Shown here in pieces: positions 8,047 through 46,392 of a stretch of 64,000 bases of DNA. The notes under the pieces are model-generated. The model searched no databases, was not told the origin of the DNA, and saw only the letters and a list, made by a program, of their open reading frames with translations. The DNA comes from Rheinheimera sp. EpRS3 (GTDB taxonomy: Bacteria > Pseudomonadota > Gammaproteobacteria > Enterobacterales > Alteromonadaceae), in NCBI RefSeq assembly GCF_001513785.1, contig NZ_LNQS01000010.1, positions 434,001-498,000 of the forward strand, read 5' to 3'. The translations under genes and the position numbers were made by a program. How positions within the stretch are numbered: the stretch's first letter is position 1; every line of letters starts with the position of its first letter.

Positions 8047-8121
8047 TACTGAATTCTCCGTTTTAATTGCGTTGCAGCTTAAGGCAGTTAAAGTGGCAAA
8101 ATCCAGCGGGATAACAATTAA

Positions 8122-10101: not shown

Positions 10102-10178
10102 AGCCAACACCTAACTGTTTTTATATACAGTAATTTAGCCAGTTAAACGCCGTGATGCAAATAAAATGTAATAAAAAT

Positions 10179-10206
10179 TTGGTTTTAACGGAAAAGTGCA
10201 TAGAAT
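10179..10206 (+). promoter_or_regulatory. Candidate sigma70 promoter of the KfrA-like gene
   Basis: TTGGTT and TAGAAT are separated by 16 bp, ending about 70 nt before the start codon of the coiled-coil gene. The boxes are moderately close to consensus. Confidence 0.4.
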
Positions 10207-10276
10207 ACTGATCTTTGTAGCGTTGACCTACGATATTTCTTTGTACTTCCACCCCAGGCAGTCGGATAAGTAAACT

Positions 10277-11974: not shown

Positions 11975-11985
11975 TAACGCCGCAC

Positions 11986-14659: not shown

Positions 14660-14753
14660 TACTACATCCTTGGGTTTATCTTTGCACCCTACCCGAAAAT
14701 ACCAGCGCCGCGCAACAGGCTTTTAAATCCAACAAGTTAGCGATTTTAATAGC

Positions 14754-14769
14754 TGTCCGTTAATGGACA
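14754..14769. promoter_or_regulatory. Candidate upstream activator site for the NtrC-type regulator
   Basis: TGTCCGTTAATGGACA has 5-bp perfect arms (TGTCC/GGACA). A weaker copy, TGTAC-N7-GGACA, follows at 14776-14792. They lie about 75-90 bp upstream of the -24/-12 element, the usual distance for sigma54 enhancers. The assignment to this regulator is by position. Confidence 0.5.
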
Positions 14770-14843
14770 CCTGGCTGTACCACCAGCGGACACCATCGCA
14801 ACCGAAAAAACTATAAAGTGTTGAATTTTAAATGTTTAGTGTT

Positions 14844-14858
14844 TGGCATGGCCTTTGC
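14844..14858 (+). promoter_or_regulatory. Sigma54 (-24/-12) promoter of the efflux operon
   Basis: TGGCATGGCCTTTGC matches the consensus TGGCACG-N4-TTGC with one mismatch and exact GG-to-GC spacing. It lies 45 nt before the adaptor gene start and faces it. A sigma54-type regulator is encoded divergently just upstream, which strengthens the call. Confidence 0.82.
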
Positions 14859-14902
14859 GTTAACAACACTAACTCGCATCGCTATTTTTTCGGAGCATAC
14901 AG

Positions 14903-16153
14903 ATGGACAAGAAGATAAGCCCCAGTGTCAAAGGTCGGCTGATAAAGCCTGCTGTTGTGTTTAGCTTGCTGGCCGCCACTGCCTGGTTTGGCACTAACTG
15001 GCAGGCCAGTGCGCAAATGTCGGTATTGCTGCCACTTAGCTCTGTCAGTACTGCCATAGTGCAACAGCAAAGCCTGCAGGAAAGCATAGCACTGCGCGCC
15101 AACGTACTGCCGCAGCACACGGTGTTTCTGGATGTGATTGAAGGCGGCCGGGTAGAGGAAAAACTGGCCGAACAAGGCCAGTTTGTTGAGCAGGGCCAGC
15201 CCCTGGTTAAGCTAAGCAACACTGCCTTGCAGCTGGATTTAATCAGCCGCGAAGCTCAGGTAACCGAGCAGATGAATTTTTTGCGCAACACGCAAATGAC
15301 GATAGAAACCAACCGGTTGAACCTGCAACGCGATGTGCTGGATATTGAGCATCAGATAACCACGCTAAGCCGTAATCTGGCCCAGAGCGAGCCACTGGTA
15401 AAAACCGGCGTGTTAGCCCAGGAACACCTGCTAAATCTGCAACAGGACTTACGCTACCAGCAGCAACGCTTACAACTGACAAAGCGGCAACAGCAGCAGG
15501 AAGAAGCCATCCGCCAGCAGCAACTTAGCCAGCTAAGCGAAAGCGTAGACATGCTGACAAAAAACCTGGAGTTTGCCCGGCAAAACGTACAAAACCTACT
15601 GGTGCGCGCACCGGTAAGCGGCTATTTAAGCGAGTTTAATGTAGAAGCCGGTGAATCACGCGCGCCGGGCAGCCGCATGGGCCAGATTGACCTGCCAGAG
15701 CGTTACAAGCTGGTGGCCAGCGTAGACGAATTTTACTTAAGCCGCGTTAGCACCGGTATGCAGGCAGTAGCCAGCCTGAACCAGCAGCAGTTGCCACTTA
15801 CCGTAAGCCGCATCGACAGCCGGGTGGTAAACAATCAGTTTCAGCTTGAATTTGCCCTGCCGGGCGAACACAGCGTAAAACGCGGCCAGTCGGTTAACCT
15901 GAACCTGCTGCTGGAGCAGCAGCAACAAACCGCACTGGTGCTGCCACGCGGCGCCTACTTAGCCGACAGCGCAGGCCAGTATGTGTATGTGCTGGACAGC
16001 CGCACCGCCATGGCGCGTAAGCAAGCCGTTACGCTGGGCAAACAAAGCGCCAACCAGATTGAAATTGTCAGCGGCCTTAATGCCGGTGATCAGGTGATTA
16101 TTTCCGGCTATCGCGAATTCCAGCAAGCCGATACTATTCAATTACAACAATAA
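14903..16153 (+). CDS. Periplasmic adaptor subunit of MacAB-like efflux system (HlyD/MFP family)
   Basis: The 416-aa membrane fusion protein has an N-terminal membrane anchor (about residues 13-33), a lipoyl half-motif, a long Gln-rich coiled-coil hairpin (about 110-230), the second lipoyl half (VRAPVSGYLSEFNVEAGE) and a beta-barrel region. It should connect the ABC permease to an outer-membrane TolC-type channel, which is not encoded here. It is first in a three-gene operon, 10 nt ahead of the ATPase gene. Transcription is expected from the -24/-12 promoter and so to depend on the divergent two-component system. The substrate is unknown. Confidence 0.9.
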   Translation: MDKKISPSVKGRLIKPAVVFSLLAATAWFGTNWQASAQMSVLLPLSSVSTAIVQQQSLQESIALRANVLPQHTVFLDVIEGGRVEEKLAEQGQFVEQGQPLVKLSNTALQLDLISREAQVTEQMNFLRNTQMTIETNRLNLQRDVLDIEHQITTLSRNLAQSEPLVKTGVLAQEHLLNLQQDLRYQQQRLQLTKRQQQQEEAIRQQQLSQLSESVDMLTKNLEFARQNVQNLLVRAPVSGYLSEFNVEAGESRAPGSRMGQIDLPERYKLVASVDEFYLSRVSTGMQAVASLNQQQLPLTVSRIDSRVVNNQFQLEFALPGEHSVKRGQSVNLNLLLEQQQQTALVLPRGAYLADSAGQYVYVLDSRTAMARKQAVTLGKQSANQIEIVSGLNAGDQVIISGYREFQQADTIQLQQ

Positions 16154-16163
16154 GGACAGCATC

Positions 16164-16865
16164 ATGATCCAGTTACAACAATTAAACCGGGTATTTCGCA
16201 CCAGCGAACTGGAAACTACCGCTCTGAACCAGATTGATTTACATATTCAGCAGGGCGATTTTGTGGCCATTATGGGCCCATCAGGCTGCGGTAAATCTAC
16301 CTTGCTAAGCATTTTAGGCATGCTGGACAGCCCCAGCTCAGGCGCCTATTTATTTCAGGGTACGGATATTGCCAATTACAGCGAAAAACAACTGGCACAA
16401 CTGCGCAAAACCCAGCTGGGCTTTGTGTTTCAAAGCTTTAACCTGATAGATGAGCTAACGGTATTTCAAAATGTTGAGCTGCCGCTGCAGTATCAGGGCG
16501 TGGCGGCCGGCGAGCGCAAGCAGCGGGTAGAGGCAATATTAAAACGTATGCAAATTGACCACCGCGCTGATCACCTGCCACTGCAGCTATCCGGTGGCCA
16601 GCAGCAGCGGGTGGCCGTGGCACGGGCGCTGGTAATTAACCCGGCGCTGATTTTAGCCGACGAACCTACCGGTAACCTGGACTCAAAAAACAGTGAAGAA
16701 GTGATGCAGATGCTGCGCCAGCTAAACCACGACGGCACCACAGTGGTGATGGTTACGCACTCTGAGCATGAATCACGCTACGCCAGCCGCATAGTGCGGA
16801 TGCTGGACGGCCAGATTATTACCGAGCGTGCCATGGAAGCAAAGATGGAGGCCAAATATGCGTAA
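16164..16865 (+). CDS. ABC transporter ATP-binding protein, MacB/LolD type
   Basis: This 233-aa ATPase carries Walker [10 protein letters not shown], the Q-loop [15 protein letters not shown], signature LSGGQQQR and Walker [14 protein letters not shown]. That subfamily serves FtsX-type permeases (LolD, MacB, FtsE). Its stop codon overlaps the start of the permease gene (ATGCGTAA), so the two are translationally coupled. Together with the adaptor and permease it forms a split MacAB-like machine that drives mechanotransmission across the periplasm and does not move substrate through the membrane itself. This mechanism is taken from the family. Confidence 0.92.
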
Positions 16866-19275
16866 TTCACTGGCAATGCTGGGCAATTACTTCACCACCG
16901 GCGTGCGTGCAGTGCTGCGGCATAAAACCCATTTAGCGTTAAATTTACTGGGCTTAACCACCGGACTGGCGTCGGCCCTGCTGATTTTACTGTATGCCAG
17001 TTACGAGCTGGGCTTTGACAAAATGCACCCCAATGCGGCCAATACCTACCGGCTGGAGCAGTTTTTTAACCCGGTAAACCAGCGTTTTCCTATTTCCAGC
17101 CCGGCGATGAAAGATCTGCTGCACAATTATGATGACCGTATCCGGGTAACACGCATTAATACCGGCGCACCGGCGCTACGCCTGGCCGGTTCCAGCCAGC
17201 AGCTGACACTGGAATGGCCGCAAGCGGTGGATACTAATATCACCGACTTTTTTCAGATAGACACATTGTCTGGCGATCTGGCCGCTACACTGGCGCAACC
17301 CAACCTGATTGCGTTATCTGAACAGGAAGCTAAGCGGTTATTTGGTAACACCAATGTGACCGGCCAGCAGTTACAACTGGGCGAACAGCGTTTTACTGTT
17401 AGCGCAGTGTACCGTATGCCAGAGCAGAGCCATTTTCAGGCCGGGTCATTGCGCCGGCTCAGCGATGAAGTAGCTGCCAGCCGCCTGGCAATGAATAATG
17501 TTTACAGTTATATCTCACTGCCTGACGACATTGATCACAGCGCTCTGCTACAGCAGTTATCTGCCCAGCTAAACGAACAGGCTTATACCGGCCGGCACAT
17601 TACTGAACTGCAATTGCGGGCACTTACCGATATTCACCTGCACTCCAGCCTGGCTTACGAATTTAAAGTGAATGGCTCGGCCAGTACGGTGAATATCTGT
17701 TTGTTACTGGCGGCTTTATTGCTGCTGATTGCCGCCATTAACTTTATTAATATGAGCACCGCCCGCGCCGCCATGCGAGCCAAAGAAGTCGGTGTGCGCA
17801 AAGCGCTGGGCGCCAGCCGTGGCCAGTTGTTTGTGCAGTTTATGCTGGAGTCAGTATTAATTGCTGCCTGCGCCGGTTTATTTGCAGCCGTGTTAGTCGA
17901 GCTGGTATTACCGCAGTTTAATTTGCTGGTAAACCGCCCGCTGCAACTGCACTACTTTGGCAGTTTTGGCCTGATTTTGCTTGGCAGCACCCTAAGTGTC
18001 GGCATGCTGGCAGGTGTGTATCCGGCGATATTTATTTCGGCCTTTGATGCCAAAAAAGTGCTAAGCGGTGATTTTCAGCGCGGTAATACGGCACTTTTGC
18101 TGCGTAAGGGCTTATTGGTACTACAGGGTGCGATTACTATAGGTTTGTTAGTATCCAGCGCAGTATTACAGCAACAACTGCAACTGCTGCAAAACCAGCC
18201 CACCGGTTATCAGCGTGATGCCCGGTTAATGGTTTCCGGTATTGAGAATGAGCAGGTATTCTGGGCGGGCAACCAAAACCTGCTACAAAGCCTGCGGCAG
18301 GTTGAAGGCGTAACGGCCGCTTCGATAATGGATATGCAGCTTACAGACACTGTTTCTCAGGCGATGAATATTCAGTTGCCGGGGCAAACCCAGGATAACG
18401 CTCTGCCGCCTATTTCGCAGATGGCAGCAGGCTTTGACATTGTCAAAACTGCGGGCTTTACCTTGCTGGCCGGGCGTGACTTTAGTGAAACCTATCAAAG
18501 CGACTGGTATCAAACGCATGGCGATCATGCAACTGCTGCAGTTATTATTACTGAATCACTGGCACGTAAAGCGGGCTATAACCAGGTGCAGGACGCCATC
18601 GGCCAGCAATGGCTGTTACCCGGCGACAATCCTGTTTTACAGATGAAAGTTGTTGGGGTAGTTGCAGATATCCAGATAGGCTCAGCCCTAAAACAACAGG
18701 AACCGTTAATACTGATTTGCGGCCGCTCGCCCATGACGTACGGCAATATCCTGCTGAATCTGCGGCCAGAACAAGCCTTTAGCGCCCGCAGCAAAGTGCA
18801 GCAACTACTGACTGATCGCCTGCAACGTCAGGATCTGCTGCTAAGCTGGCTAAGTGATGACTACAACGCCATGTACCAGAACCAGCAGCGCCAGACTAAG
18901 GTTATTGCTATTTTTGCTGCACTGGCCATTGCTTTAACCTGTGTCGGCTTATTTGGTTTAGCCGCCTTTAGTGCCGAGCAGCGCTCACGCGAAGTAGCAA
19001 TGCGCAAGGTGCTGGGTGCAGGGCGCTTTAGTCTGGTTAATTTGCTGGCCAGCGAATATATCAGGCTGATGGCAATTAGCGCCGTACTTGCCATTCCCGC
19101 CACTTTTTTGGCACTGGATAGCTGGCTGGCTGAGTTTAGCGTGCGCATCAGCCAGAACCCGCTTTGGTACTTGCTGGCCGCAGCCGCTACCTTCGCTATT
19201 TGCTGGTGCACTGTTGCCACTCTGGCCTGGCAGGTTGCAGGGCGTAAACCTGCCATGGTATTAAGACAGCAATAA
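16858..19275 (+). CDS. ABC transporter permease with two FtsX domains (MacB-like)
   Basis: The 805-aa protein has an N-terminal helix (about residues 20-42), a MacB-type periplasmic core, an FtsX domain with three helices and the REVGVRKALGAS-like segment (AKEVGVRKALGASRG), a second periplasmic core and a second FtsX domain with REVAMRKVLGAG. Two complete FtsX modules in one chain mean one copy can act as the whole permease. A GTG/ATG further upstream (16828) is open, but GGAGG before the ATG at 16858 and the ATGCGTAA overlap with the ATPase gene decide the start. Third gene of the sigma54-controlled operon. Confidence 0.9.
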   Translation: MRNSLAMLGNYFTTGVRAVLRHKTHLALNLLGLTTGLASALLILLYASYELGFDKMHPNAANTYRLEQFFNPVNQRFPISSPAMKDLLHNYDDRIRVTRINTGAPALRLAGSSQQLTLEWPQAVDTNITDFFQIDTLSGDLAATLAQPNLIALSEQEAKRLFGNTNVTGQQLQLGEQRFTVSAVYRMPEQSHFQAGSLRRLSDEVAASRLAMNNVYSYISLPDDIDHSALLQQLSAQLNEQAYTGRHITELQLRALTDIHLHSSLAYEFKVNGSASTVNICLLLAALLLLIAAINFINMSTARAAMRAKEVGVRKALGASRGQLFVQFMLESVLIAACAGLFAAVLVELVLPQFNLLVNRPLQLHYFGSFGLILLGSTLSVGMLAGVYPAIFISAFDAKKVLSGDFQRGNTALLLRKGLLVLQGAITIGLLVSSAVLQQQLQLLQNQPTGYQRDARLMVSGIENEQVFWAGNQNLLQSLRQVEGVTAASIMDMQLTDTVSQAMNIQLPGQTQDNALPPISQMAAGFDIVKTAGFTLLAGRDFSETYQSDWYQTHGDHATAAVIITESLARKAGYNQVQDAIGQQWLLPGDNPVLQMKVVGVVADIQIGSALKQQEPLILICGRSPMTYGNILLNLRPEQAFSARSKVQQLLTDRLQRQDLLLSWLSDDYNAMYQNQQRQTKVIAIFAALAIALTCVGLFGLAAFSAEQRSREVAMRKVLGAGRFSLVNLLASEYIRLMAISAVLAIPATFLALDSWLAEFSVRISQNPLWYLLAAAATFAICWCTVATLAWQVAGRKPAMVLRQQ

Positions 19276-35773: not shown

Positions 35774-35951
35774 AAAAGAATCCCTGTAATCATGCTTCAT
35801 CGATAGTGTGGTTATTCTAATAGATAACGCAGCAGATTACAGGGCCAGGGTGAAGTTTTGCTGAATATCCAGATACAGCTCAGTTACTTTACTGTTTGTT
35901 ATACCCGAGGTAATAACTCTCACGCATAAACTAAGGCATTTTAGCGGGGTG

Positions 35952-36302
35952 CTATTCAGCAGTATGCCTTTCACTGATGCTGAATATCTGGTGCTCAGTC
36001 ACTATCGGTAATTCCGCCGTTTCAAGATAAAATCCCAGCTTGATTTCATCTGGCCGCGCTGTAGCATGTGTAATGGAAAACAACCTGCCACTAACCTGAT
36101 AGGTTTCATGTTGCAACAGGTACAAACTGCCAACACTAAACCAGTTAGCATGCTTTTTATCTGCCCAGAAATGCAGCAATGGCTGTTCGCTCTGCATGTC
36201 AGACGGCTGTGGTTCTGCCGCACGGATATAGATGGCATAAGGATACAGTGCAGCCACCGCAACAGCAGACAAAAACAGCCCGATTATCAATAACCGATGC
36301 AT
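35952..36302 (-). CDS. Small membrane-anchored protein, last gene of the lanthipeptide block
   Basis: The 116-aa protein begins with one hydrophobic helix (MHRLLIIGLFLSAVAVAALY), followed by about 90 hydrophilic, beta-rich residues that should lie in the periplasm. I recognise no family. The frame is open further upstream to 36464, inside the adaptor gene, but GGGAGC six nt before the ATG at 36302 decides the start. It follows the HlyD-type adaptor gene by 10 nt and is surely co-transcribed. By position it is a candidate immunity or export-accessory protein, but nothing in the sequence proves that. Confidence 0.7.
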   Translation of the reverse strand: MHRLLIIGLFLSAVAVAALYPYAIYIRAAEPQPSDMQSEQPLLHFWADKKHANWFSVGSLYLLQHETYQVSGRLFSITHATARPDEIKLGFYLETAELPIVTEHQIFSISERHTAE

Positions 36303-36312
36303 ATGTTGCTCC

Positions 36313-37563
36313 CTATAACCTGCCACGCAAGCTGAATAGCGGCTCAAACAGCCAGCTGAGCAGGCTGCGTTGTTCCAGCATAATGTCAGCACTGAGCAGC
36401 ATACCGGCCTGCAACGGCACCTGATCGCCATAAGCGGCGATCTGCTGCTGATCCAGTTGCACATTAACCTGGTATACCGGCTCGGTAAGCGATACCGGCA
36501 TGTCTACTTCATTGGGTAATAAAATGGCTTTTGACTGCTGCACCACTTTACCGCGATACAAGCCGAAGCGTTGATACGGAAAAGCGTCATAACGTAAGCG
36601 GGCCTCCTGGCCGGGTTGAATAAAACCAAAAGCACGGGTTGGCACCAGCAACACGGCGTACAGATTGCTATTCTCAGGCAAAATGGTCAGCATCGATTTG
36701 CCGGCCTGCGCCATGCCGCCGGCCTGAGCCACTAAATTGGTGATCCGCCCGGCAACCGGAGCTGTCACTAATATTTCACCGCGCGCTGACAGTTCCGAGT
36801 GCTGTTGCGATAAACGCGCCAGTTCGGTTGCCAACTGAGCTTTCTGCTGCTCATGCTCCCGCGGTAATGCGGCAAGCTGTGACTTTAGCTGAATTAGCTG
36901 CCCCTGCTGCTGCTGATAGTTAATCAATAACTCCGTACGCTGCTGCTGCATGCTGAGCAACAGTTCCCGCTGATTATTAAGCTCTGTGGCGGAAATATGT
37001 CCTTCGCGGTGCAAAGTTTCAATATCAGCTAACCGCTGCTTATTCAACAACTCCCGCTGTTGCATCAGTTGCTGCTGTGAACGGATTTCGGTTAGTTGCG
37101 ACAGCAGATTATCAATACGGTCCTGCAAAGTTTGATGTTGCTGGATATACAGTAACTGGTACTCATCCAGCCTGAGCTGCAAAGTCTGCTGTTGTTGCTC
37201 CAGTGACAACAAAAGCTGGCCGCTTAAGTTACTCCCGTGCGCCAGATATTCTTCTGATGAAATCAGTGCCAGTTTCTGGCCTGCACTAACACTGTCCCCA
37301 TCAGCAACAAATAATTCAACGATAGTGCCGGAACGCTGTGGCGCCACGCGCGCCAGCCCCAGATCAGGTTTTAAATACCCAACTACCGTTTCCTTGCGGT
37401 TAAAAGAGGCCTGACTGAGAAATAATACAGCCATGACCACCACCAATAACAAAATACCGACCAGCACAGACACTTTAATAGGTTGTGCAATCACCACACT
37501 CCCATCAAGCTTAACTCCTTGATGTTGTACTGCTTCAGCCCTGAATAAACTATCGGAACTCAT
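36313..37563 (-). CDS. HlyD/CvaA-type secretion adaptor
   Basis: The 416-aa membrane fusion protein has a cytoplasmic N-terminus, one membrane helix (about residues 30-52), a long Gln/Leu-rich coiled-coil (about 110-255) between two lipoyl halves, and a beta-barrel C-terminus with TEPVYQVNVQL. It resembles the adaptors that pair with C39-peptidase ABC exporters of microcins (CvaA with CvaB). It should link the exporter at 40880 to a TolC-type channel encoded elsewhere. It lies 60 nt after the lanthionine synthetase gene. Confidence 0.88.
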   Translation of the reverse strand: MSSDSLFRAEAVQHQGVKLDGSVVIAQPIKVSVLVGILLLVVVMAVLFLSQASFNRKETVVGYLKPDLGLARVAPQRSGTIVELFVADGDSVSAGQKLALISSEEYLAHGSNLSGQLLLSLEQQQQTLQLRLDEYQLLYIQQHQTLQDRIDNLLSQLTEIRSQQQLMQQRELLNKQRLADIETLHREGHISATELNNQRELLLSMQQQRTELLINYQQQQGQLIQLKSQLAALPREHEQQKAQLATELARLSQQHSELSARGEILVTAPVAGRITNLVAQAGGMAQAGKSMLTILPENSNLYAVLLVPTRAFGFIQPGQEARLRYDAFPYQRFGLYRGKVVQQSKAILLPNEVDMPVSLTEPVYQVNVQLDQQQIAAYGDQVPLQAGMLLSADIMLEQRSLLSWLFEPLFSLRGRL

Positions 37564-37623
37564 GATATTTCCCGCCCCGTGCCTGACATTACCTGTAGTA
37601 AATTTGGTCTTACTGCATAACTG

Positions 37624-40353
37624 TCATACATAACACTGTGCCTGTTGATGACCAGACGAAGACACATCAAACTGAGGGCTTCTGGCCAGATAATCCCAAA
37701 TCAGCTGATCGGACATGAAATTGAAGTTTTCCCCCCCTAACACTAAACGTTGTAAAAACAAGGCGCTACCAGCAGACCCATCAGCATAATCTACATTAAC
37801 CTTAGTCCGGTTGTTTGCCGGAAAACACATACCTTCGCTACGTTCAATTACAAAAATTTTTAACGCGGTAGCAGCCTGACAGGCTAAATGGTAATAACTC
37901 TGATCATTGAGGAATTCATAAGCATCCAGCAGATAGTTGCCCAGCCCGGACACACCGCTGAATAAACCCGAATTAATAGTGTACTTTGACGAAACAGACG
38001 TTTTAATAGCATGGATAAAATCCAGATACTGACTCTCAGCAGTTATCGCATAATAACGCAACACAACACTGGCAACCCCGGCAGTGCCATAACCAAGATA
38101 GGGATAAAGAATCGAAACGTTGCTTCGCTTAGGAAAGCCATAAGAGCCGTTGGTATCTTTACCAAAGTTAAGGTCAGCCTGTAAGGCCTTTTTACCGGCT
38201 TCCAGATACTGTTTGTCCACCGTAGCGCAGTACAGATACAATAAAAACAACGCTATACCGCTGCCGCCTTCCCACAAACCAACACCGATACCAGCTGGCT
38301 GATCATGATTTTCCCAGTACAGCGCGCCGTCACGTTCTGTTGCCTGCAATAACAACACAGCCGCTATTTTTTTTGCTGCGGCTAAATCATCAGCCAACCC
38401 GACTTTGTGCCAACGGCGTAACAGCGTATAGCCATACCCTGCCGCACCATAGCCCAACGACATATTGCTATATAACTGACGATTAGTAGCAGTTTGCCGC
38501 AGCATCCTGCCTGCAAGTTTTTCAGAACCCAGCTCTTGCAATACCCAGGCATAACCGGCAGTTCCGTTTAACAAACCGGGTAAGGCATCACCACAAGATG
38601 CTGCTTTGTGTTCTAGCCAGTTCAGCATTTCAGCAGGTATTTGTCCGGCCAATCTGTTCCAGGCATAAGCCACGCCAGCGACGCCGTGGTCTACCGCTAT
38701 TGCTTGCTGAAACTCAGGACCAAATGGCAATACACGTTCATGGCGATCTAGTTGCAAATAATGCGTATTGTATTTCAGTACTCCATTGATAATCTGCTCG
38801 GCACTCTCCTTTAAATGCTGAAAGCTAATATCGGTTTTCAACACCAATGCGTGCATCTGACTAACATCTATCTGCTGCAGCATTTCAATACAAATGTCCA
38901 AGCTTGGTATCGGATCTTGCAGTAAATAAGTGATGCACTTCAGATAAGCGTCTGGCAGACCAAAATCCTGCTGTAACTCACGGAAAAATACTTGCGCATA
39001 ATCTGCTTTAAGATTCAGCATAGTGCTGCTGGGCATAAACATCGCCACCAGCACACACCCCATAGCGTAATAGTCGTCACAGTAATCAACACAATCCCGG
39101 CTCAGGCGATCGGCTTTAGCAAAACCTGGGGTGTAAAAATTGACATCTTTATCGATACCCGGCTCGCAGGCGCCTTCGAAATCAATCAATTTAACGACCA
39201 GCGTGTCTGGTTCAATCATAATATTATTTAATGACAAATCGCCAAAAATAACCTGCTTTGAATGCAACAACTGCAACGCTTTGATACAGTTAATAGCGAT
39301 GGTAATAGTATTTTTAACCCAAAGTTGCAACTGCTCTGTACTGGATTGCGCATGCACAATCTTACTTTGCTGCACTTGATAACTACGCAATGTCTGTCCG
39401 GCAACAATCTGTTGCGCCAAATACATATGCTGCCATTCCTGAAAGTAGCCGTAGGATTTTGGTGCTATGTCTAAGTCTTTGAGCTTAGTAAGTATTCGGT
39501 GTTCTTTCTCCAGCCTAACAATACAGTCAACTCCTGAGTCAAAGCCCACATATGGGCGGGCCTCTTTAATAATAACTTCTTCACCACTGTGGATATCTTC
39601 AGCAAAATACACACCACCTGCATTAGAAAATTTAATCACAGACTTGATATCGTAACGGCCATCAAAAGCAGTAGTTGCTGTAACCTGATCAGAAAGAGTT
39701 GTGTCATCTTCAGTATCAATCTCAGTAGCAGGTGCCACAAACTCATCGGTTACAAAATCAGGTAAGACAAAACAGGCATCACGCTTATCTTCGGTATAGC
39801 AAAACTCACTGTCTATAATGCATGCTGTTGTTTGATTAAAGTTATCTTTTTGCTCAAAACTTTTAAAACCACCGTAACGATAGAACAGTACAGCTGCGTC
39901 TTTATAAGGCCTATCCGACAGAATATATGGCCCTTCTTCGTTTTTAAGTTCTTGGTATAAAGCCTCTATCAGCCGAATATAAATGGCTTTGTCAGTAGGA
40001 TAAATGGTAATAAATTTTCCGGACGCAGAACGGGTGCAGTTTTTCCCCAGCAGCGTTTTTAACACTCTGCCGTCTGTAGCGAATTTAAACTCTACCTGGT
40101 GCTCAATACATAACGGCACCACTTTTTCTAAAGTCCGATACTCATTACCCCAGCGGCTGGAGACATGAATTTTCCAGCCTTGCACAGGTTTAGTGGCAGC
40201 GCTGTCTGGTGATATGGCGTAGGTCCAGAAGTAGTCTTGCCTTAAACGCCAAGTTAACGGAATAATATTACTGACGAAGTCAAAGTACTCTGAATTAGGC
40301 TGCCGCCATTCAAATGGTATATAAAAATCCGGATGCGCATTTAAATCTCTCAT
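37624..40353 (-). CDS. Three-domain lanthionine synthetase, LanKC (class III) architecture
   Basis: The 909-aa enzyme has three parts. Residues about 1-220 form the phosphothreonine/phosphoserine lyase-like region, with GWKIHV at 59-64 and YKDAAVLFYRYGGF at 150-163. Residues about 232-510 form a protein kinase: lysine K263 in VIIKEARPY, catalytic loop GDLSLNNIMI (D372, N377), and LIDFEGACE (D391). Residues about 545-905 form a LanC-like toroid with GxxG repeats (GVAGVAYA, GYGAAGYGY, GYGTAGV). Where LanC enzymes have Cys and Cys-His zinc ligands, this one reads WEGGSG and LFSGVSG, so zinc binding is not expected; that distinguishes class III from class IV. It should phosphorylate and eliminate Ser/Thr in the precursor, then close (methyl)lanthionine or labionin rings. 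Confidence 0.88.
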   Translation of the reverse strand: MRDLNAHPDFYIPFEWRQPNSEYFDFVSNIIPLTWRLRQDYFWTYAISPDSAATKPVQGWKIHVSSRWGNEYRTLEKVVPLCIEHQVEFKFATDGRVLKTLLGKNCTRSASGKFITIYPTDKAIYIRLIEALYQELKNEEGPYILSDRPYKDAAVLFYRYGGFKSFEQKDNFNQTTACIIDSEFCYTEDKRDACFVLPDFVTDEFVAPATEIDTEDDTTLSDQVTATTAFDGRYDIKSVIKFSNAGGVYFAEDIHSGEEVIIKEARPYVGFDSGVDCIVRLEKEHRILTKLKDLDIAPKSYGYFQEWQHMYLAQQIVAGQTLRSYQVQQSKIVHAQSSTEQLQLWVKNTITIAINCIKALQLLHSKQVIFGDLSLNNIMIEPDTLVVKLIDFEGACEPGIDKDVNFYTPGFAKADRLSRDCVDYCDDYYAMGCVLVAMFMPSSTMLNLKADYAQVFFRELQQDFGLPDAYLKCITYLLQDPIPSLDICIEMLQQIDVSQMHALVLKTDISFQHLKESAEQIINGVLKYNTHYLQLDRHERVLPFGPEFQQAIAVDHGVAGVAYAWNRLAGQIPAEMLNWLEHKAASCGDALPGLLNGTAGYAWVLQELGSEKLAGRMLRQTATNRQLYSNMSLGYGAAGYGYTLLRRWHKVGLADDLAAAKKIAAVLLLQATERDGALYWENHDQPAGIGVGLWEGGSGIALFLLYLYCATVDKQYLEAGKKALQADLNFGKDTNGSYGFPKRSNVSILYPYLGYGTAGVASVVLRYYAITAESQYLDFIHAIKTSVSSKYTINSGLFSGVSGLGNYLLDAYEFLNDQSYYHLACQAATALKIFVIERSEGMCFPANNRTKVNVDYADGSAGSALFLQRLVLGGENFNFMSDQLIWDYLARSPQFDVSSSGHQQAQCYV

Positions 40354-40443
40354 AAAAACCTCAGCCTTATTAATTAATATAAAGCTATAACAATAATTAA
40401 AAATTATTAAGCTGTAATTTATGACAGGTTTATATTAATAAAT

Positions 40444-40473
40444 AAAAAATCGGGCTGAAAGCCCGATTTTTTT
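40444..40473 (-). terminator. Terminator between precursor gene and synthetase gene
   Basis: AAAAAATCGGGC-tgaaa-GCCCGATTTTTTT is a strong hairpin with runs on both sides. On the minus strand it follows the precursor gene and precedes the synthetase, so it may limit read-through and keep precursor mRNA in excess. Confidence 0.85.
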
Positions 40474-40491
40474 CATTCTAAATAATGAAAG

Positions 40492-40689
40492 TTATGCCTT
40501 TGAAATAACACCATCACGTACACAACCATCACTCATTGTGCTCCACTCGTCACCGCCAACAGTGTTACAGCCACGGCTCATCGTGCTCCAGTCCAGCGGA
40601 GCAACCTGGTCTTGTAAACGACCACCTGACACTTGAGCCAGCTGCTGAAGATTCAATACTTTATCTTTGCTTAATTCTTGTTTTTTCAT
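40492..40689 (-). CDS. Lanthipeptide precursor with double-glycine leader and tandem WSTMSxGC motifs
   Basis: The 65-aa peptide has a 23-residue leader ending LQQLAQVSGG, a classic double-glycine site for C39 peptidases. The leader also holds VLNLQQL, similar to the LxLQ motif recognised by class III synthetases. The 42-residue core carries DWSTMSRGC and EWSTMSDGC, 15 residues apart; each contains S-x-x-S-x-x-C, the labionin/lanthionine pattern of class III peptides. The core's only two cysteines are in these motifs. The two copies differ at synonymous positions, which suggests selection on the peptide. The start at 40689 has AAGGA at 7 nt; an ATG two codons upstream (40695) is too close to it. 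Own promoter and terminator. Confidence 0.88.
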   Translation of the reverse strand: MKKQELSKDKVLNLQQLAQVSGGRLQDQVAPLDWSTMSRGCNTVGGDEWSTMSDGCVRDGVISKA

Positions 40690-40715
40690 TTTCATTTCCT
40701 TAAATTTTGATTAAA

Positions 40716-40743
40716 ATATCAGCTATTAATTTGTTAGTATCAA
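40716..40743 (-). promoter_or_regulatory. Candidate promoter of the precursor gene
   Basis: On the minus strand TTGATA (40738-40743) and TGATAT (40716-40721) are 16 bp apart, ending 26 nt before the start codon. The 9-mer TAGTATCAA overlapping the -35 (40735-40743) is repeated at 40772-40780, 37 bp upstream, as a possible regulator site. Confidence 0.5.
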
Positions 40744-40830
40744 GCTGTTCCGCCAACCAACGATTCAATAATAGTATCAATATAAATATAAACAACCTGT
40801 AATATATTACAGCATAGCTGAAATTTTCAT

Positions 40831-40855
40831 AAAAAAAGCGGGCACAATGCCCGCT
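40831..40855 (-). terminator. Terminator downstream of the exporter gene
   Basis: AGCGGGC-acaat-GCCCGCT is a 7-bp stem; on the minus strand it is followed by a T-run (A-run at 40831-40837). It ends the exporter transcript ahead of the precursor gene promoter. Confidence 0.85.
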
Positions 40856-40879
40856 GTAATAACTATTAAATATATTGTT

Positions 40880-42973
40880 TCATGCAATTTTCTGTAACAT
40901 ATCTCTTCGATACTGCTCAGTGATTTCTACCAACTTACCATTGCACAGCAACAACACTCTATCAGCACTTTGTATCGTTTCTGGCCGGTGTGCAATTATG
41001 ATTCGGGTAATATTAAGCGTTTTAACAGCGTCGTTTACATGGCTCTCTAACTGAATATCTAAACTGCTGGTAGCCTCATCCAAAAACAGAATTTTTGGTT
41101 TTTTATACAAAGCTCTGGCCAGATGTAATCGCTGGCGCTGGCCGCCCGACAATGAGCTCCCCATATCTCCAATTAAAGCATTGTAGCCCATCGGCATAGC
41201 AATAATGTCATGATGGATACCTGCCAGAGTTGCACATTCTGTAACTCTGTTCAGATCCATTTCTGGATCAAAAAAGGCTATGTTCTCAGCCAGAGTGCCA
41301 GACATCAACTGGTCATGCTGCATCACTGCAGCTACCTGCCGTCGGTAATGCCCCAGCCCTAGATGCCGGATATCAGTGTTATCAACCAGTATCTTGCCAC
41401 TGTCGGCAGGTAAGAGCCCAAGCATCAATTTAGCCAGTGTCGTTTTCCCTGAACCAGATGGGCCTATAATGGCGACACTTTCGCCAGCAGTAATGCTAAA
41501 ACTAACTGTATCAAATAACAGCGGATCAGTTGCTGAATAGCGGTATGCCAGTTGTTGTACTGTTATCTCACCAGAAATCTCACGATAAAGGCCAGCTGCA
41601 TCATCTTGCTCTTTCTCAGTTAGTGCAATATCTGACAACCGCTCAAGATGAAGGCGTGTCATGTAAAGTAGTACCAGTTTGTCAATCAGTGCAGCCATTC
41701 TCTCCGTAAACTGGGTTTTGTAAGTGAGGAACGCAAATAACATACCCACACTTAATAGGCCATCCATCACAGCATAAGCCGCAAGAAAGATAACGACAGT
41801 GTTCTCGATACCAAACAACAACTGATTAATCGTCTGGTAAGAAATTTGCCACCTGCCTAGCAAAAAGTTTTGGTTAACTGCGTCTGAATATCTGTTTTGC
41901 CAAATATTTAACCTTTGGCTTTGCTGACCAAACAGCTTAATGCTCTGCATACCACGTACAGTTTCCATAAAGTTAGACTGTTCGGTCGCTGTTGCCATAA
42001 TACTGGCCTCGGTGCGGTCACGCATTGGCCGGTATAATACCCAACGCAATAAGCCATACAACAGCACTGTGCCAAGCACTACAGTGGCCAGTTTAGGGCT
42101 GTAGATATACATCATCACCAGCACACAGCTGGCCATAATGCCGTCAATCAGCCCTTCAACCAGACTGTTGGTCAGCAACTCTCTCACCTTGTTCAGAGAG
42201 CTAAAACGCGACACAATGTCGCCGATATGGCGTTTCTCAAAATAACTTAGCGGCAAGTGCACCAGATGCCGGAACAAATTGGTAGCCATCTGCAGGTTCA
42301 TCGTGGAGCCCAGATACAAAATCACCCAGCCTCTTAATGTCTGGGTTAATACTTTAACTAACATTAGTAAACCAAAGCCCAGCGCCAGCACCAGCATCAG
42401 CGACTGATCTGCACTGATCAGCACGTCGTCAACCACCAGTTGGATATAGTAAGGCGATGCCAGTACAAACAACTGTAATAGTAGCGATAAGACAAAAATC
42501 TTTAGCAGCGACGGCAGTAAACCCTCAATACGGCTCCAGAATGCTGTCAGCCCAAGCTGGACACGTTCATCACGTTTGCGAAAACTTTGTGTAGGAGTTA
42601 ACTCCAGGGCAATACCGCTAAAACAATCTGATACTTCAGCCCTAGCTACTTTACGTTCACCCACAGCTGGGTCCAAAATAACGATATAGCGCTTACTGAC
42701 TTTTTTCAGCACCACAAAATGATTCATATTCCAATGTAAAATACACGGCAATTGCAACTGGGCAAGCTCATCCAGGTCAACCCTTAGTGCCCTTCCCGCC
42801 AGCGACAACTGATCAGCCAATTGGATAAGATGCTGTAAGTTAGTGCCCTTCAGTGAAACCGAGTAACGATTCCGCAAGGTGCCAAGATCAAGTTGATGTC
42901 CATGATTACTTGCTATCATGGCTATACACGCTAATCCGCACTCGGCTGATTCCGACTGATAAATGAATTGCAT
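40880..42973 (-). CDS. C39-peptidase ABC exporter (bacteriocin/lanthipeptide type)
   Basis: The protein of about 697 aa has an N-terminal C39 peptidase domain with YQSESAECGLAC (catalytic Cys12), His85 in NHFVVL and Asp101 in LDPAVG. It should cut the precursor after its double glycine. A six-helix ABC membrane domain and an ATPase domain follow (GPSGSGKTT, LSGGQRQR, ILFLDEATSSLD). The frame is open to a TTG at 43021 that overlaps the preceding small gene, but the ATG at 42973 has GGGG at 6 nt and places the Cys where it normally is. With the HlyD adaptor it forms a type I export system, rare for class III lanthipeptides. Confidence 0.92.
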   Translation of the reverse strand: MQFIYQSESAECGLACIAMIASNHGHQLDLGTLRNRYSVSLKGTNLQHLIQLADQLSLAGRALRVDLDELAQLQLPCILHWNMNHFVVLKKVSKRYIVILDPAVGERKVARAEVSDCFSGIALELTPTQSFRKRDERVQLGLTAFWSRIEGLLPSLLKIFVLSLLLQLFVLASPYYIQLVVDDVLISADQSLMLVLALGFGLLMLVKVLTQTLRGWVILYLGSTMNLQMATNLFRHLVHLPLSYFEKRHIGDIVSRFSSLNKVRELLTNSLVEGLIDGIMASCVLVMMYIYSPKLATVVLGTVLLYGLLRWVLYRPMRDRTEASIMATATEQSNFMETVRGMQSIKLFGQQSQRLNIWQNRYSDAVNQNFLLGRWQISYQTINQLLFGIENTVVIFLAAYAVMDGLLSVGMLFAFLTYKTQFTERMAALIDKLVLLYMTRLHLERLSDIALTEKEQDDAAGLYREISGEITVQQLAYRYSATDPLLFDTVSFSITAGESVAIIGPSGSGKTTLAKLMLGLLPADSGKILVDNTDIRHLGLGHYRRQVAAVMQHDQLMSGTLAENIAFFDPEMDLNRVTECATLAGIHHDIIAMPMGYNALIGDMGSSLSGGQRQRLHLARALYKKPKILFLDEATSSLDIQLESHVNDAVKTLNITRIIIAHRPETIQSADRVLLLCNGKLVEITEQYRRDMLQKIA

Positions 42974-43007
42974 CTTTTGCCCCACTGTATTTTCTAAATT
43001 GCTCAGG

Positions 43008-43163
43008 TTAGCTTGCGGCAAGAATGGGTATGGCTACTGATGCGCTAGCTGATGTTTCAGTGCCAGATTTGACCGAGCTAAGGTTCTCCACCAGTTGGCT
43101 CAATCGCTGTAGGCTAATAAACTCTGGCGCAGGTAAAGCAGATTTTGGTTTAGCGACTTGCAT
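43008..43163 (-). CDS. Small peptide, candidate second (Cys-free) precursor
   Basis: The 51-aa peptide has a leader-like N-terminal part with FISLQRLSQL, close to the VLNLQQLAQV of the main precursor and to the LxLQ motif of class III leaders. It ends in a Ser/Thr/Ala-rich segment (TETSASASVAIPILAAS) without cysteine. GGAAGG lies 7 nt before the ATG at 43163; a TTG nine codons upstream is open but unlikely. It starts 23 nt after the LuxR-type gene and ends just before the exporter. It could be a substrate that is dehydrated without ring closure, or a leader-like regulator. It has no canonical GG site (reads VKSG). Confidence 0.65.
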   Translation of the reverse strand: MQVAKPKSALPAPEFISLQRLSQLVENLSSVKSGTETSASASVAIPILAAS

Positions 43164-43186
43164 AAGGTTACCTTCCAACTGGCGAT

Positions 43187-43840
43187 TCAAAGATAAATGT
43201 GACCAGCGCTAATACAACGGCTGATCGCCTGCTGACGGTTGCTACTATTGGTTTTTGCAATACAATTGCTCAGATGAAAATTCACCGTACGCTCAGATAT
43301 CGATAGGATTTGGCTGATTTCCCACGATGTTTTGCCTCTGGCTGCCCAGTTAAGGCAAGATTTCTCCCGGCTGGTTAAGCCAAAATTTTCAACATCGTCA
43401 GCATGGGCTGACAATCGGTAAATTGCTTCATAAACATAGTGAGCTATGATGGTCCAGTACCACGCAATATGCTCCGCCAGTTCAACTTGTGCCGACTGCA
43501 TGCCAATGATCAACACTCCGGCATCAGTGCCCACCCCACGAATCGGGATCAACAAAGCCTCATCAGCAACAGGCAATGCGTCAATTAATCCACTATCACG
43601 GGTTAATGCCGGCGTGCAGCGCTGCTGGCAGAATATTTGTAACTGGTTATGGCTGGTCAGAACGTTGAAGTCTTCCTTTGTACCGGCACATATTAACTCA
43701 GCTTTTCGTTGCGCCCGCCACAGCACCAAGCCACAGAAAGGGTATTGGTATTGCTGCTGGATCTGCAAAAAGAAATCTGGCAGCGCAGCCACAGTCGTCA
43801 TCGACTGTAATTCTCTGACCATAGGTTCAATCTGGCTCAT
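43187..43840 (-). CDS. LuxR-family transcriptional regulator
   Basis: The 217-aa protein has a C-terminal LuxR/GerE HTH (about residues 150-210; LTSREKSCLNWAARGKTSWEISQILSIS region) and an N-terminal domain resembling a degenerate autoinducer-binding fold (FCGLVLW). No luxI-type synthase is nearby, so it would be a LuxR solo or bind another ligand. It heads the transcript with the small peptide and the exporter. GAGGAA before the ATG supports the start. It probably controls the lanthipeptide genes, by position. Confidence 0.87.
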   Translation of the reverse strand: MSQIEPMVRELQSMTTVAALPDFFLQIQQQYQYPFCGLVLWRAQRKAELICAGTKEDFNVLTSHNQLQIFCQQRCTPALTRDSGLIDALPVADEALLIPIRGVGTDAGVLIIGMQSAQVELAEHIAWYWTIIAHYVYEAIYRLSAHADDVENFGLTSREKSCLNWAARGKTSWEISQILSISERTVNFHLSNCIAKTNSSNRQQAISRCISAGHIYL

Positions 43841-43873
43841 AGTAAGTTTCCTCTGGTGTTAATAACGGCAGCT

Positions 43874-44032
43874 TTACTCAGAGACATTATCTGGCGGGCA
43901 GATAAACCAGCAGTAAGGTTTAATATCAGTTTTATCCTTATCTGCATTGTCATCGGCCAGTAGCGGCGCAGAAACAAATAAAGAGAACACAGTAATTAAA
44001 GCCGTAGCTACAACAGAGATTTTCTTTAACAT
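43874..44032 (-). CDS. Small Sec-exported peptide with CWFIC segment
   Basis: This 52-aa gene has AAGGA 7 nt before its ATG and a clear signal peptide: MLKK, a hydrophobic core, and a probable cut after PLLA. The mature part would be about 26 residues, acidic at first (DDNADKDK) and ending IKPYCWFICPPDNVSE, with two Cys that could form one disulfide. I know no family. It lies between the LuxR-type gene and the transmembrane regulator, all on one strand. It might be an extracellular signal sensed by that regulator, or a second exported product; both are inference. Confidence 0.7.
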   Translation of the reverse strand: MLKKISVVATALITVFSLFVSAPLLADDNADKDKTDIKPYCWFICPPDNVSE

Positions 44033-44131
44033 GATGGCGTCCTTATAAATTTGACTGAGCGGATACTCGAGCCAAGCTTGGTCGCCGAAGTATTTTAATG
44101 CGATAACCGCGGCAGGACTTAGGTGTGACTT

Positions 44132-46219
44132 TTACAGAATGGACTTATAACCAAAGTTATAACCACCACTAACTAACTGATTTGTATCAACTCTTGGTTT
44201 AAAGAACAGTAGTTCATTACCAGATACATCCAGTGAAAAATTTAAACTAAATTCATTAAAAGCCAGGCTGCGTTGCCAGTTGGTATGCTGCTGCAGGTCA
44301 ATACGCACCAGTTGCCAATCTGACATCAGTGTACGATGCACTAAACTTAACTGCTCCTGACGCAACATAAACTTATAATCCAGATCAAAATGAATCCCCT
44401 GATACAGTAACTGTTGCTGGCCAAATTGTTTATCTAACTGCCACAGGCGGCCGGTAGAATCCGCCCCCAGATAACCATCTTTGTAGGGCTGCAGGTAACG
44501 GTAGTCCTGTAGCAGTAAATGCTGTGATGCTGAAGCCACTTCGTATTGCATAATCTGCCATTGTCCGGCACTGAATACCGGAAAATACACCGCAGAACCA
44601 TCAGCAGCAAATACGCCTTGATCCACCTGTTGTGTGCGCAAAGATATATTGGCTGACATACCACTGTTAACGTCTAACAGTTCGAGCCGGTTATTGCGCT
44701 TTAACAGTAGTAAAGCAGAGGCTGGCGCCTGATCCAACAGAGTAAAACTAGCTTCTGACTGCATAACTAATTGGCGCTGCGCAGTGGCCGGATAATAACG
44801 TGACAACAGGTACTGCTTGTCCTGCTGCTCTACTAGCCAGTAATACTGCGGGTCCTGGCTAAAATGCAAAGCCAATACTTGGGGGCCAAGCTGTAAATGC
44901 TGATTAAAGCCCTCACGAAACGGCCAGCGGGTTTTATATATTTGCTGCTCTGCCGCTTTGCGAAAAATGGCAAAGTACCGACCGTGACCATCCAATACCA
45001 GCTCTTTCACACTATGAGCGGCATTATCCAGCGCACTGAGTTTATTATCAGCCAGATGCAGTTGCTCAAAGCTATCACCACGCTTTATCAGCAGCTCAGC
45101 ATTACTTATCCAGGCTATACGGGTATCCGCCAGTTCATTGCTGAGTAAACGCTCATACAACAGCTCTTTATCCGCCAGCCGGTAGAGCTGCAGATACAGC
45201 TTACGCTCAGCAATATTGGCACGAACTAAGGCAACTTGGCTTCTGTCCGGCGACAACCTGGCATAGGCATCCTGTACGCCGACAATACTGCTGTAGCTAA
45301 ACTGACTGATTGTTTTCTGCGTTAAATCGTACTGGTAATAGTGAATATTGCCGTTATAGGTTTCGCCACCGGCAATCAGTAACCTGTTGTCTGGCAATGC
45401 CAGGGGGCCAGCCAAAATAGGTAAGTCCGGTAAGACGACGCGTTGCGGCGCAGCGGCCAGATTGGACAACGGCTGCAGATAAAACTCAGCGTGATCTGCG
45501 CGAAAGCCAACATACGCCAGCAAAGTATCGCCGGCAACAAAGTCGACAAAACGCACATGTGGTACCGGAGTTGAAATTTTTGTCAGTTGAGCAGTGGCTT
45601 TGTCGTGTAAAAACAACTGCCAGTTATCACTGCTGTTAACCCTGCCAACAAAAGCCTGATACCGGCCATCGGCAGACACCGCCAGGCTGGCTTTTTGTCC
45701 GGGGATATCTAATATTACTTGCTGTAAATCTGCTTGCAGACCCTGTGCTGGTTGTAAATACAGCCAACAGATACTTAATAACGAAGCAAAGAATATGCCC
45801 GACGCAACAATACGGCGGTAGTTAGGTCGTTTAACAGAACCGTATTCTTCATTACTTGTGGCTGCGTCAGGCTGCAGTGTTACTTTGTCGGCCGGCTGTG
45901 CCTGCGACTCAAATGCCGGGCAAACCAACTGATAGCCGCGCTTCATTTGCGAACGAATGTATTTGGGCTGCTCAGTATCATTGTCGCCTAACAAGGCCCG
46001 CAACTTACTGACAGTGCGCCTTACCGCCGTGTCAGTAACAACACGCCCCTGCCAAACCTGTTGGTGTAATTCCTGTAAACTGACAAAACGATCAGCATGT
46101 AGAATAAAGTAACACAACACCTCTATTACTTTTGGCTCGGCGGCCAGCTCTTCGTGCTGGCGGTATAGCCTGCGCTCCTGTGTATCAACTCTGAACTCAC
46201 CGAGATCGACAATCTTCAT
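44132..46219 (-). CDS. Transmembrane winged-helix regulator with propeller-like periplasmic domain (CadC-like)
   Basis: The 695-aa protein has an OmpR/PhoB-type winged helix (about residues 1-105; VVTDTAVRRTVSKLRALLGD, KYIRSQMKRGYQLV), a linker, one membrane helix (IVASGIFFASLLSICWLYL, about 145-163), and a periplasmic part of about 520 residues with repeated short beta segments as in TolB/WD40-like propellers. This is the CadC/ToxR layout, which couples an outside signal directly to DNA binding. It is the most upstream gene of the block and the likely sensor-activator. No close functional homologue is recognised. Confidence 0.85.
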   Translation of the reverse strand: MKIVDLGEFRVDTQERRLYRQHEELAAEPKVIEVLCYFILHADRFVSLQELHQQVWQGRVVTDTAVRRTVSKLRALLGDNDTEQPKYIRSQMKRGYQLVCPAFESQAQPADKVTLQPDAATSNEEYGSVKRPNYRRIVASGIFFASLLSICWLYLQPAQGLQADLQQVILDIPGQKASLAVSADGRYQAFVGRVNSSDNWQLFLHDKATAQLTKISTPVPHVRFVDFVAGDTLLAYVGFRADHAEFYLQPLSNLAAAPQRVVLPDLPILAGPLALPDNRLLIAGGETYNGNIHYYQYDLTQKTISQFSYSSIVGVQDAYARLSPDRSQVALVRANIAERKLYLQLYRLADKELLYERLLSNELADTRIAWISNAELLIKRGDSFEQLHLADNKLSALDNAAHSVKELVLDGHGRYFAIFRKAAEQQIYKTRWPFREGFNQHLQLGPQVLALHFSQDPQYYWLVEQQDKQYLLSRYYPATAQRQLVMQSEASFTLLDQAPASALLLLKRNNRLELLDVNSGMSANISLRTQQVDQGVFAADGSAVYFPVFSAGQWQIMQYEVASASQHLLLQDYRYLQPYKDGYLGADSTGRLWQLDKQFGQQQLLYQGIHFDLDYKFMLRQEQLSLVHRTLMSDWQLVRIDLQQHTNWQRSLAFNEFSLNFSLDVSGNELLFFKPRVDTNQLVSGGYNFGYKSIL

Positions 46220-46348
46220 CTGTCGCCACCAGGACTATGTTAACAATTAAAGCATTAAGTTTTAATTCAGTTATTTTTATATAATAAAGATAACGGAGTA
46301 TTAATCAACATTGTTCCCCAACTGACTGCAAATTGACCAAACATAAGC

Positions 46349-46374
46349 AAAAAGCCACCCTAAGGTGGCTTTTT
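46349..46374. terminator. Terminator of the atp operon
   Basis: AAAAAGCCACC-ctaa-GGTGGCTTTTT is an 11-bp stem with runs on both sides, 19 nt after the atpC stop on the minus strand. It marks the border between the conserved atp operon and the accessory block. Confidence 0.9.
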
Positions 46375-46392
46375 ATATTTCGGAACCCGAAC

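Follow-up and report, generated by a model that had tools for sequence, protein, structure and literature searches.

A 64,000-nucleotide stretch of DNA from Rheinheimera sp. EpRS3, referred to here as the window, carries a 10.5-kb block between atpC and glmU that, with a probability of roughly 0.82, makes and secretes a class III lanthipeptide. On this reading, two regulators, a C39-peptidase ATP-binding cassette (ABC) exporter and an HlyD-type adaptor form a frame that is shared with other loci, and the genes for a precursor peptide and its synthetase, LanKC, form a cassette set into it. The novelty would lie in the leader of the precursor, which appears to carry two codes at once, and in what looks like an exchange of cargo within a single export frame.

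The LanKC protein contains, in order, the Pfam domains RamC_N (residues 27-207), kinase (245-446) and LANC_like (556-873). It passed the NCBI class III model NF038151 (653 bits; cut-off 575) and failed the NCBI class IV (LanL) model (457 bits; cut-off 650). At the alignment columns of the class IV zinc ligands C777, C822 and H823, the window protein has G754, F798 and S799. A class IV identity of the synthetase is ruled out by this score together with the missing ligands; the protein also scores below the NHLM equivalog cut-offs. The nearest solved structure by sequence is a LanKC (8sap; E 4e-77), and the predicted model (predicted TM-score 0.80) matches ThurKC with TM-scores of 0.77/0.82. The candidate lyase residues K61, H63, K90 and Y118 and the kinase residues K263, E284, D372, N377 and D391 are identical in 15 LanKC proteins and one class IV LanL. 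Goto et al. name Lys51, His53, Arg83 and Tyr108 in VenL (PMC2843593); K90 and Y118 of the window protein probably correspond to Arg83 and Tyr108. Thus, the original prediction of a class III enzyme with a LanC-like domain devoid of zinc ligands is confirmed at the level of sequence, and dehydration and ring formation on its precursor are predicted.

The precursor leader, KVLNLQQLAQVSGG, contains LNLQ and VSGG; the core starts with RLQDQ and carries two WSTMSxGC motifs. A homologous precursor lies close to LanKC in 10 of 10 relatives from the same LanKC clade (see below), and the window precursor is therefore not a chance open reading frame (ORF). Across 13 aligned precursors, taken from the loci of the window and nine relatives, the two leucines and the glutamine of VLxLQ are invariant, as is S-x2-S-x2-C of the first core motif, and every leader ends in GG or GA. 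All 11 clade loci, the window included, encode a Gly-Gly-leader precursor. The code of C39 peptidases in peptidase-containing ABC transporters (PCATs) is described as Gly-Gly with hydrophobic residues at -4, -7 and -12 (PMC10885120). The window leader segment VLNLQQLAQVSGG supplies L-12, L-7, V-4, G-2 and G-1, so that the precursor matches a PCAT substrate by pattern, and cleavage is predicted. Two codes overlap in this leader: LxLQ, for the synthetase, and -12/-7/-4/GG, for the exporter peptidase. The full overlap pattern, with V or I at -4 and GG, was found in 10 of 10 clade loci, in contrast to 1 of 70 others. A candidate precursor was found in 58 of those 70 loci, and in 57 of the 58 the place in LxLQx that resembles -7 is hydrophobic, in a search that itself required the first two hydrophobic residues and the glutamine. 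Thus, class III leaders already meet most of the exporter code, and the clade adds V/I and GG. Gly-Gly leaders in class III systems have already been published (Walker et al., PMC7268733). We rejected the idea that WST.S..C in the core marks the clade: besides 9 of the 10 clade loci, 6 of the 70 others have this motif, where four (L112, L134, L142 and L145) resemble real precursors and two (L130 and L146) resemble chance. The clade is set apart by leader and exporter, and its core motif is ordinary class III.

The LanKC loci compared here are the best 80 of 545 confirmed loci from a scan of genome contigs, a sample that leans to near relatives. In a FastTree tree of 76 rows, the window falls into one clade, with support of 100, with ten Pseudomonadota rows (three Rheinheimera, Alkalimonas, Iodobacter, Janthinobacterium, Undibacterium, Pseudoduganella, a Burkholderiaceae metagenome-assembled genome and Stenotrophomonas). 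LanKC has a C39 exporter no more than 9 kb away in the window and in 8 of these 10 relatives, versus 0 of the 70 loci outside the clade; at least 18 of the 70 are shortened by contig ends, as are three clade loci (L104, L108 and L111). HlyD matches occur in 7 of the 10. The window exporter has the Q-x5-C-G motif and a Peptidase_C39 domain fused to an ABC transporter, which is the PCAT architecture; against the NHLP/NHLM bacteriocin exporter model TIGR03796 it failed (499 bits; cut-off 853). The genome that contains the window also has four TolC-type ORFs. The Gly-Gly-leader precursor, the C39 exporter with its HlyD adaptor, and the usual absence of such an exporter from class III loci had all been proposed at the outset, and they agree with these data. 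In Alkalimonas amylolytica (L183), a C39 exporter 68% identical to that of the window lies away from LanKC and contains one in-frame TAG.

It had also been proposed that class III systems are known mainly from Actinobacteria and Firmicutes; the data show such synthetases to be less rare among Proteobacteria than this implies. The 25 named Pseudomonadota rows fall into separate tree groups of 10 (plus the window), 8, 3, 3 and 1, which requires at least four label changes. lanKC has been reported in Lysobacter (PMC9410377), and a modified class III peptide is described from Myxococcus, there placed under Pseudomonadota (PMC9576775). In a hidden Markov model search of the class, 318 of 369 genomes match at E <= 0.001 through ordinary kinases, and the genome of the window is the only one to pass the cut-off. 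Among plasmid records, 73 from at least 15 genera matched in a search for LanKC, with no proteobacterial row among the 30 plasmid matches listed. Titles and abstract openings in the open literature revealed no LanKC with C39/HlyD in Proteobacteria and no description of the atpC-glmU site.

The block lies between atpC (46809-46393) and glmU (35800-34409), and every named gene is on the minus strand. Its features, in the order from atpC to glmU and in window coordinates, are as follows.

46348..46375, minus strand: terminator-like hairpin trailing atpC, left block edge; 12 pairs, kept in the empty-site genomes G024, G027, G005 and G004
44132..46219, minus strand: CadC-like one-component regulator (PF00486, 45 bits)
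43874..44032, minus strand: 52-aa ORF with a hydrophobic N-terminal stretch and a C-x3-C-PP tail; no Pfam family
43187..43840, minus strand: LuxR-type regulator with a GerE helix-turn-helix at the C-terminus (PF00196, 65.9 bits)
43008..43163, minus strand: 51-aa ORF in the LuxR-C39 gap (slot 1), weakly conserved
40880..42973, minus strand: C39-peptidase ABC exporter with peptidase (PF03412, 128 bits), membrane (PF00664) and ATPase (PF00005) domains; the ORF can be extended to a TTG at 43021
40837..40855, minus strand: terminator-like hairpin trailing the exporter gene; 8 pairs, 6 of them G-C, with a T run
40492..40689, minus strand: lanthipeptide precursor, 65 aa from the conserved Met (alternative start 40695); NF038154 and the 13-precursor alignment
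40444..40472, minus strand: terminator-like hairpin of 13 pairs between precursor and LanKC genes, a possible attenuator
37624..40353, minus strand: LanKC, 909 aa, with lyase, kinase and zinc-less LanC-like cyclase domains; Pfam, NCBI models and structure
36313..37563, minus strand: HlyD-type periplasmic adaptor (PF13437, 52 bits; PF16576, 46 bits)
35952..36302, minus strand: small protein of 116 aa, hydrophobic helix at the N-terminus; no Pfam family
35861..35866, minus strand: right block edge, where sequence common to the empty-site genomes G024, G027 and G005 restarts upstream of glmU

The original prediction had all the named genes in their places and omitted the small ORFs at 36302-35952, 43163-43008 and 44032-43874, which travel with the exporter and regulator genes in relatives. 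Matches to the 52-aa ORF stand beside the frame in four genomes of the genus (G015, G017, G014 and G019), and G003 has a comparable small ORF. The 116-aa protein adjoins HlyD in all six frames compared, those five genomes included, and is possibly an exporter accessory or an immunity protein. The hairpin at 40472-40444 would suit a high ratio of precursor to enzyme; the terminator scan of the region gave 17 sites versus 9.1 +/- 3.4 in shuffled sequences, and single sites are little proof. A promoter scan of the region gave no excess (22 sites versus 19.5 +/- 4.0).

We found atpC in 31 of 31 genomes of the genus and could measure the atpC-glmU interval in 29; contig breaks interrupt the other two. 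The interval ranges from 118 bp to 33.8 kb: it is shorter than 250 bp in 8 genomes, 0.25-3 kb in 7, and at least 3 kb in 14. The window block begins right behind the atp terminator and ends at the sequence common to G024, G027 and G005, and in place of the block these three genomes show some 20 bp from the atp terminator to the glmU-proximal junction, which bears out the proposal of a discrete insertion. The LanKC block proper is present in G000, G015, G017 and G014, and intact in four genomes; R. pacifica and R. oceanensis are among the species that have it. A search with the window protein found matches at E <= 1e-20 in 6 of the 31 genomes, four within the clade and two distant (27-30%). The atpD-atpC tree built from 30 genomes resolves poorly (9 of 27 inner branches starred) and served only to place the genome of the window, which groups with G016 and G024 (99/96); the site of G024 is empty. 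A natural contrast is provided by A. ikkense (G006), which encodes another LanKC (29-30%) between atpC and glmU. Its 33.8-kb interval (L090, L102 and L149) holds five precursor ORFs that lack GG, an ABC protein that has no C39 match, and several CadC-like genes. Gene clusters that recur in the genus intervals (L070-L091 and L102) include an S9 peptidase cluster of 12, TraB/GumN of 9, M16 peptidase of 5 and CadC-like of 22. S9 and M16 proteases remove class III leaders elsewhere (PMC10885120); at the atpC-glmU site their genes mostly occur without LanKC. On the other side of glmU, L079 (G001) has another CadC-LuxR-C39-type set at 8037-18660 (29%, 36% and 42% identity).

The same frame also occurs with other cargo. 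G019 and G003 keep the CadC, LuxR, C39 (76-77% identical to the window), HlyD (69-70%) and small-protein genes and have no LanKC. Their cargo occupies two slots, the LuxR-C39 gap (slot 1) and the C39-HlyD gap (slot 2), and consists of ATP-grasp proteins, a radical-SAM/SPASM protein and small GG-leader ORFs. G019 has an MvdD-type ATP-grasp ligase, and further ATP-grasp proteins are present in both genomes; the nearest model to the radical-SAM protein is TIGR04103 (nif11-class-3-like), with a score under the cut-off, and none of these maturases reached an NCBIfam equivalog cut-off. The radical-SAM gene is 84% identical between the two genomes and sits in different slots: in G019 it is in slot 1, inverted and beside transposase fragments, and in G003 it is in slot 2. 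Identity between the two frames is 53% for CadC, 73% for LuxR, 95% for C39 and 88% for HlyD, so that conservation of the frame is strongest at the exporter. Compared with base shuffles, the GG-leader ORFs are clear in G003 (8 matches, one of them dubious; shuffle mean 0.48, maximum 3) and weak in G019 (4 matches; mean 0.63, maximum 4). The suggestion that the lanthipeptide has sensors of its own did not survive this comparison: regulators and exporter private to the lanthipeptide are ruled out, because the same frame carries other maturases in these two genomes.

Several observations weigh against a lanthipeptide made and exported by this block. The class IV CuvL structure fits the LanKC model almost as well as ThurKC does (TM-scores 0.72/0.75), and a structure search by itself would not separate class III from class IV. 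The precursor clears the model NF038154 ('class III lanthipeptide') by only 0.1 bit (22.1 bits; cut-off 22), which was reached by 4 of 9 relatives' precursors scanned (L068, L105, L106 and L108) and missed by the other five (L103, L109, L110, L111 and L125). Outside the clade, the leader at L160 (Kitasatospora sp. CB01950) fits the C39 code with no C39 domain within 9 kb. The exporter at the clade locus L105 is distant (27% identical to that of the window), and no HlyD match was found there. No immunity gene was recognised. Between the window and G019, which differ in cargo type, the regulators are less conserved (CadC 46%, LuxR 58%) than C39 and HlyD. Finally, two clade loci (L106 and L125) have no C39 exporter within 9 kb; C39-type exporters are encoded elsewhere in both of these genomes (Alkalimonas, 68%/55% identity; Janthinobacterium, 48%/42%). 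These two members would suit an alternative in which the product of LanKC is a class III peptide that host proteases trim and that leaves by another exit, as in Actinobacteria, with the C39 exporter reserved for other clients. The related C39 exporters of G019 and G003, which stand among other GG peptides, and a second C39 protein elsewhere in the genome of the window point in the same direction. However, C39 accompanies LanKC in most of the clade, the V/I(-4), GG leader is nearly confined to it, and a search of the window block for GG-leader ORFs found the precursor alone; we consider separate clients improbable and favour the C39 exporter as the exit for the lanthipeptide.

Silent sites set the cargo apart from the frame. 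Between the window and G015, synonymous divergence (dS) is 2.18 for LanKC and 1.92 for the precursor, versus 0.76 for C39, 0.62 for HlyD, 0.80 for LuxR, 0.59 for CadC and 0.68 for glmU; the pattern against G017 is similar, and values against G014 and G019, saturated for most genes, were not used. Four-fold sites identical to G015 number 152 of 313 in the cargo and 510 of 774 in the frame genes (Fisher p 1.6e-7), and those identical to G017 number 141 of 313 and 529 of 787 (p 2.2e-11). Along the frame, nucleotide identity mostly lies at 0.8-0.9; it drops to 0.7-0.8 between the C39 end and the beginning of HlyD and to 0.61-0.64 between LuxR and C39, and both dips coincide with the two slots, which are occupied by other cargo in G019 and G003. 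This suggests that precursor and LanKC are an exchanged cassette within a shared frame; the direction of the exchange we infer. On the one hand, the two genes may instead have descended with the exporter, their silent sites evolving faster under weaker codon selection or local mutation. The four genus members branch in the same order in the LanKC tree and in the C39 tree, so the exchange rests on distance and not on tree conflict; Burkholderiales and Stenotrophomonas LanKC and C39 are about equally distant from those of the window (41-45% and 45-48%); and GC content at third codon positions is lower in the window cargo (0.40-0.42) than in its neighbours (0.47-0.55). On the other hand, the four-fold gap speaks against this, and so does the identity profile, which falls where C39 is about to end, rises within the start of HlyD and falls once more between LuxR and C39, at the two slots; common descent seems to us rather unlikely. 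Exchange of the cassette can be extended to the whole site, in a proposal that we regard as evenly balanced: atpC-glmU may be a plug-in peptide locus, in which one regulator/C39/HlyD frame offers two slots that swap unrelated cargoes (class III lanthipeptide, ATP-grasp peptide, radical-SAM peptide and plain GG peptides) by recombination. LxLQxL already gives two of the three hydrophobic exporter positions, and the addition of V/I and Gly-Gly could have sufficed.

Empty sites are common in the genus, as the eight shortest intervals attest, which would suit a decaying or silent island that yields no product. We consider this very improbable: the ORFs are intact, the catalytic residues are kept, the block is whole in four genomes, and the genes are under purifying selection. 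The ratio of nonsynonymous to synonymous divergence (dN/dS) against G015 and G017 is 0.058-0.061 for LanKC and 0.046-0.047 for C39, and 0.050 for the precursor against G015, with dS near saturation for LanKC and the precursor in the comparison with G015.

If the block is functional, its product would arise as follows. The CadC-like and LuxR-type proteins would turn the block on. The former is predicted to have a winged helix, one transmembrane helix (134-155) and a large beta-propeller C-terminal part; its AlphaFold2 model has a mean predicted local distance difference test score of 83.3 and a predicted TM-score of 0.62, Foldseek matched it to beta-propeller proteins with full-length TM-scores of only 0.20-0.29, and it scored 81 bits against the CadC equivalog (cut-off 400). 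The leader helix would dock on LanKC, whose kinase domain would phosphorylate Ser/Thr within the two WSTMSxGC motifs; elimination of the phosphate by the lyase domain would leave dehydro residues, to which the LanC domain, devoid of zinc, would link Cys (lanthionine and/or labionin). The exporter's C39 peptidase would recognise the same leader in turn and cut after Gly-Gly, and the core of about 42 residues would exit via the ABC exporter, the HlyD adaptor and a channel of the TolC type whose gene lies elsewhere.

This system resembles known class III systems (NF038151 and NF038154; the ThurKC, SalKC, PneKC and CurKC structures) in domain order, lyase and kinase residues, absent zinc ligands, LxLQ leader and S-x2-S-x2-C core. 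It differs in the GG leader end with V/I at -4 and in having a C39 exporter and HlyD encoded inside the cluster or close to it; in the characterised cases, proteases of the S8, S9, M1 or M16 families take off the class III leader (PMC10885120). With the PCAT systems that export class II lanthipeptides and nif11/NHLP peptides it shares the GG leader, the hydrophobic -4/-7/-12 residues and a peptidase-ABC fusion with adaptor, whereas its synthetase is a LanKC and not the LanM of class II systems. Class IIb-type microcins are exported by a C39 ABC transporter, HlyD and TolC; exporter, adaptor and GG leader are alike, no known microcin or immunity gene was recognised, and the cargo of the window block is a predicted thioether peptide. 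The graspetide and radical-SAM peptide loci of G019 and G003 share the site and frame, with ATP-grasp and radical-SAM proteins in place of LanKC. The chemistry is already known, and its coupling to Gly-Gly cleavage and type I export is a new variant.

If this reading is correct, class III chemistry is joined to Gram-negative type I export with the leader peptidase inside the cluster, which would remove the usual doubt over where class III leaders end. The leader would be a natural case of a short helix read by a synthetase first and a protease second. One exporter would be paired with several chemistries of ribosomally synthesized and post-translationally modified peptides (RiPPs), ready-made for engineering, and RiPP cargoes may move between classes via cassette swaps inside a shared export frame.

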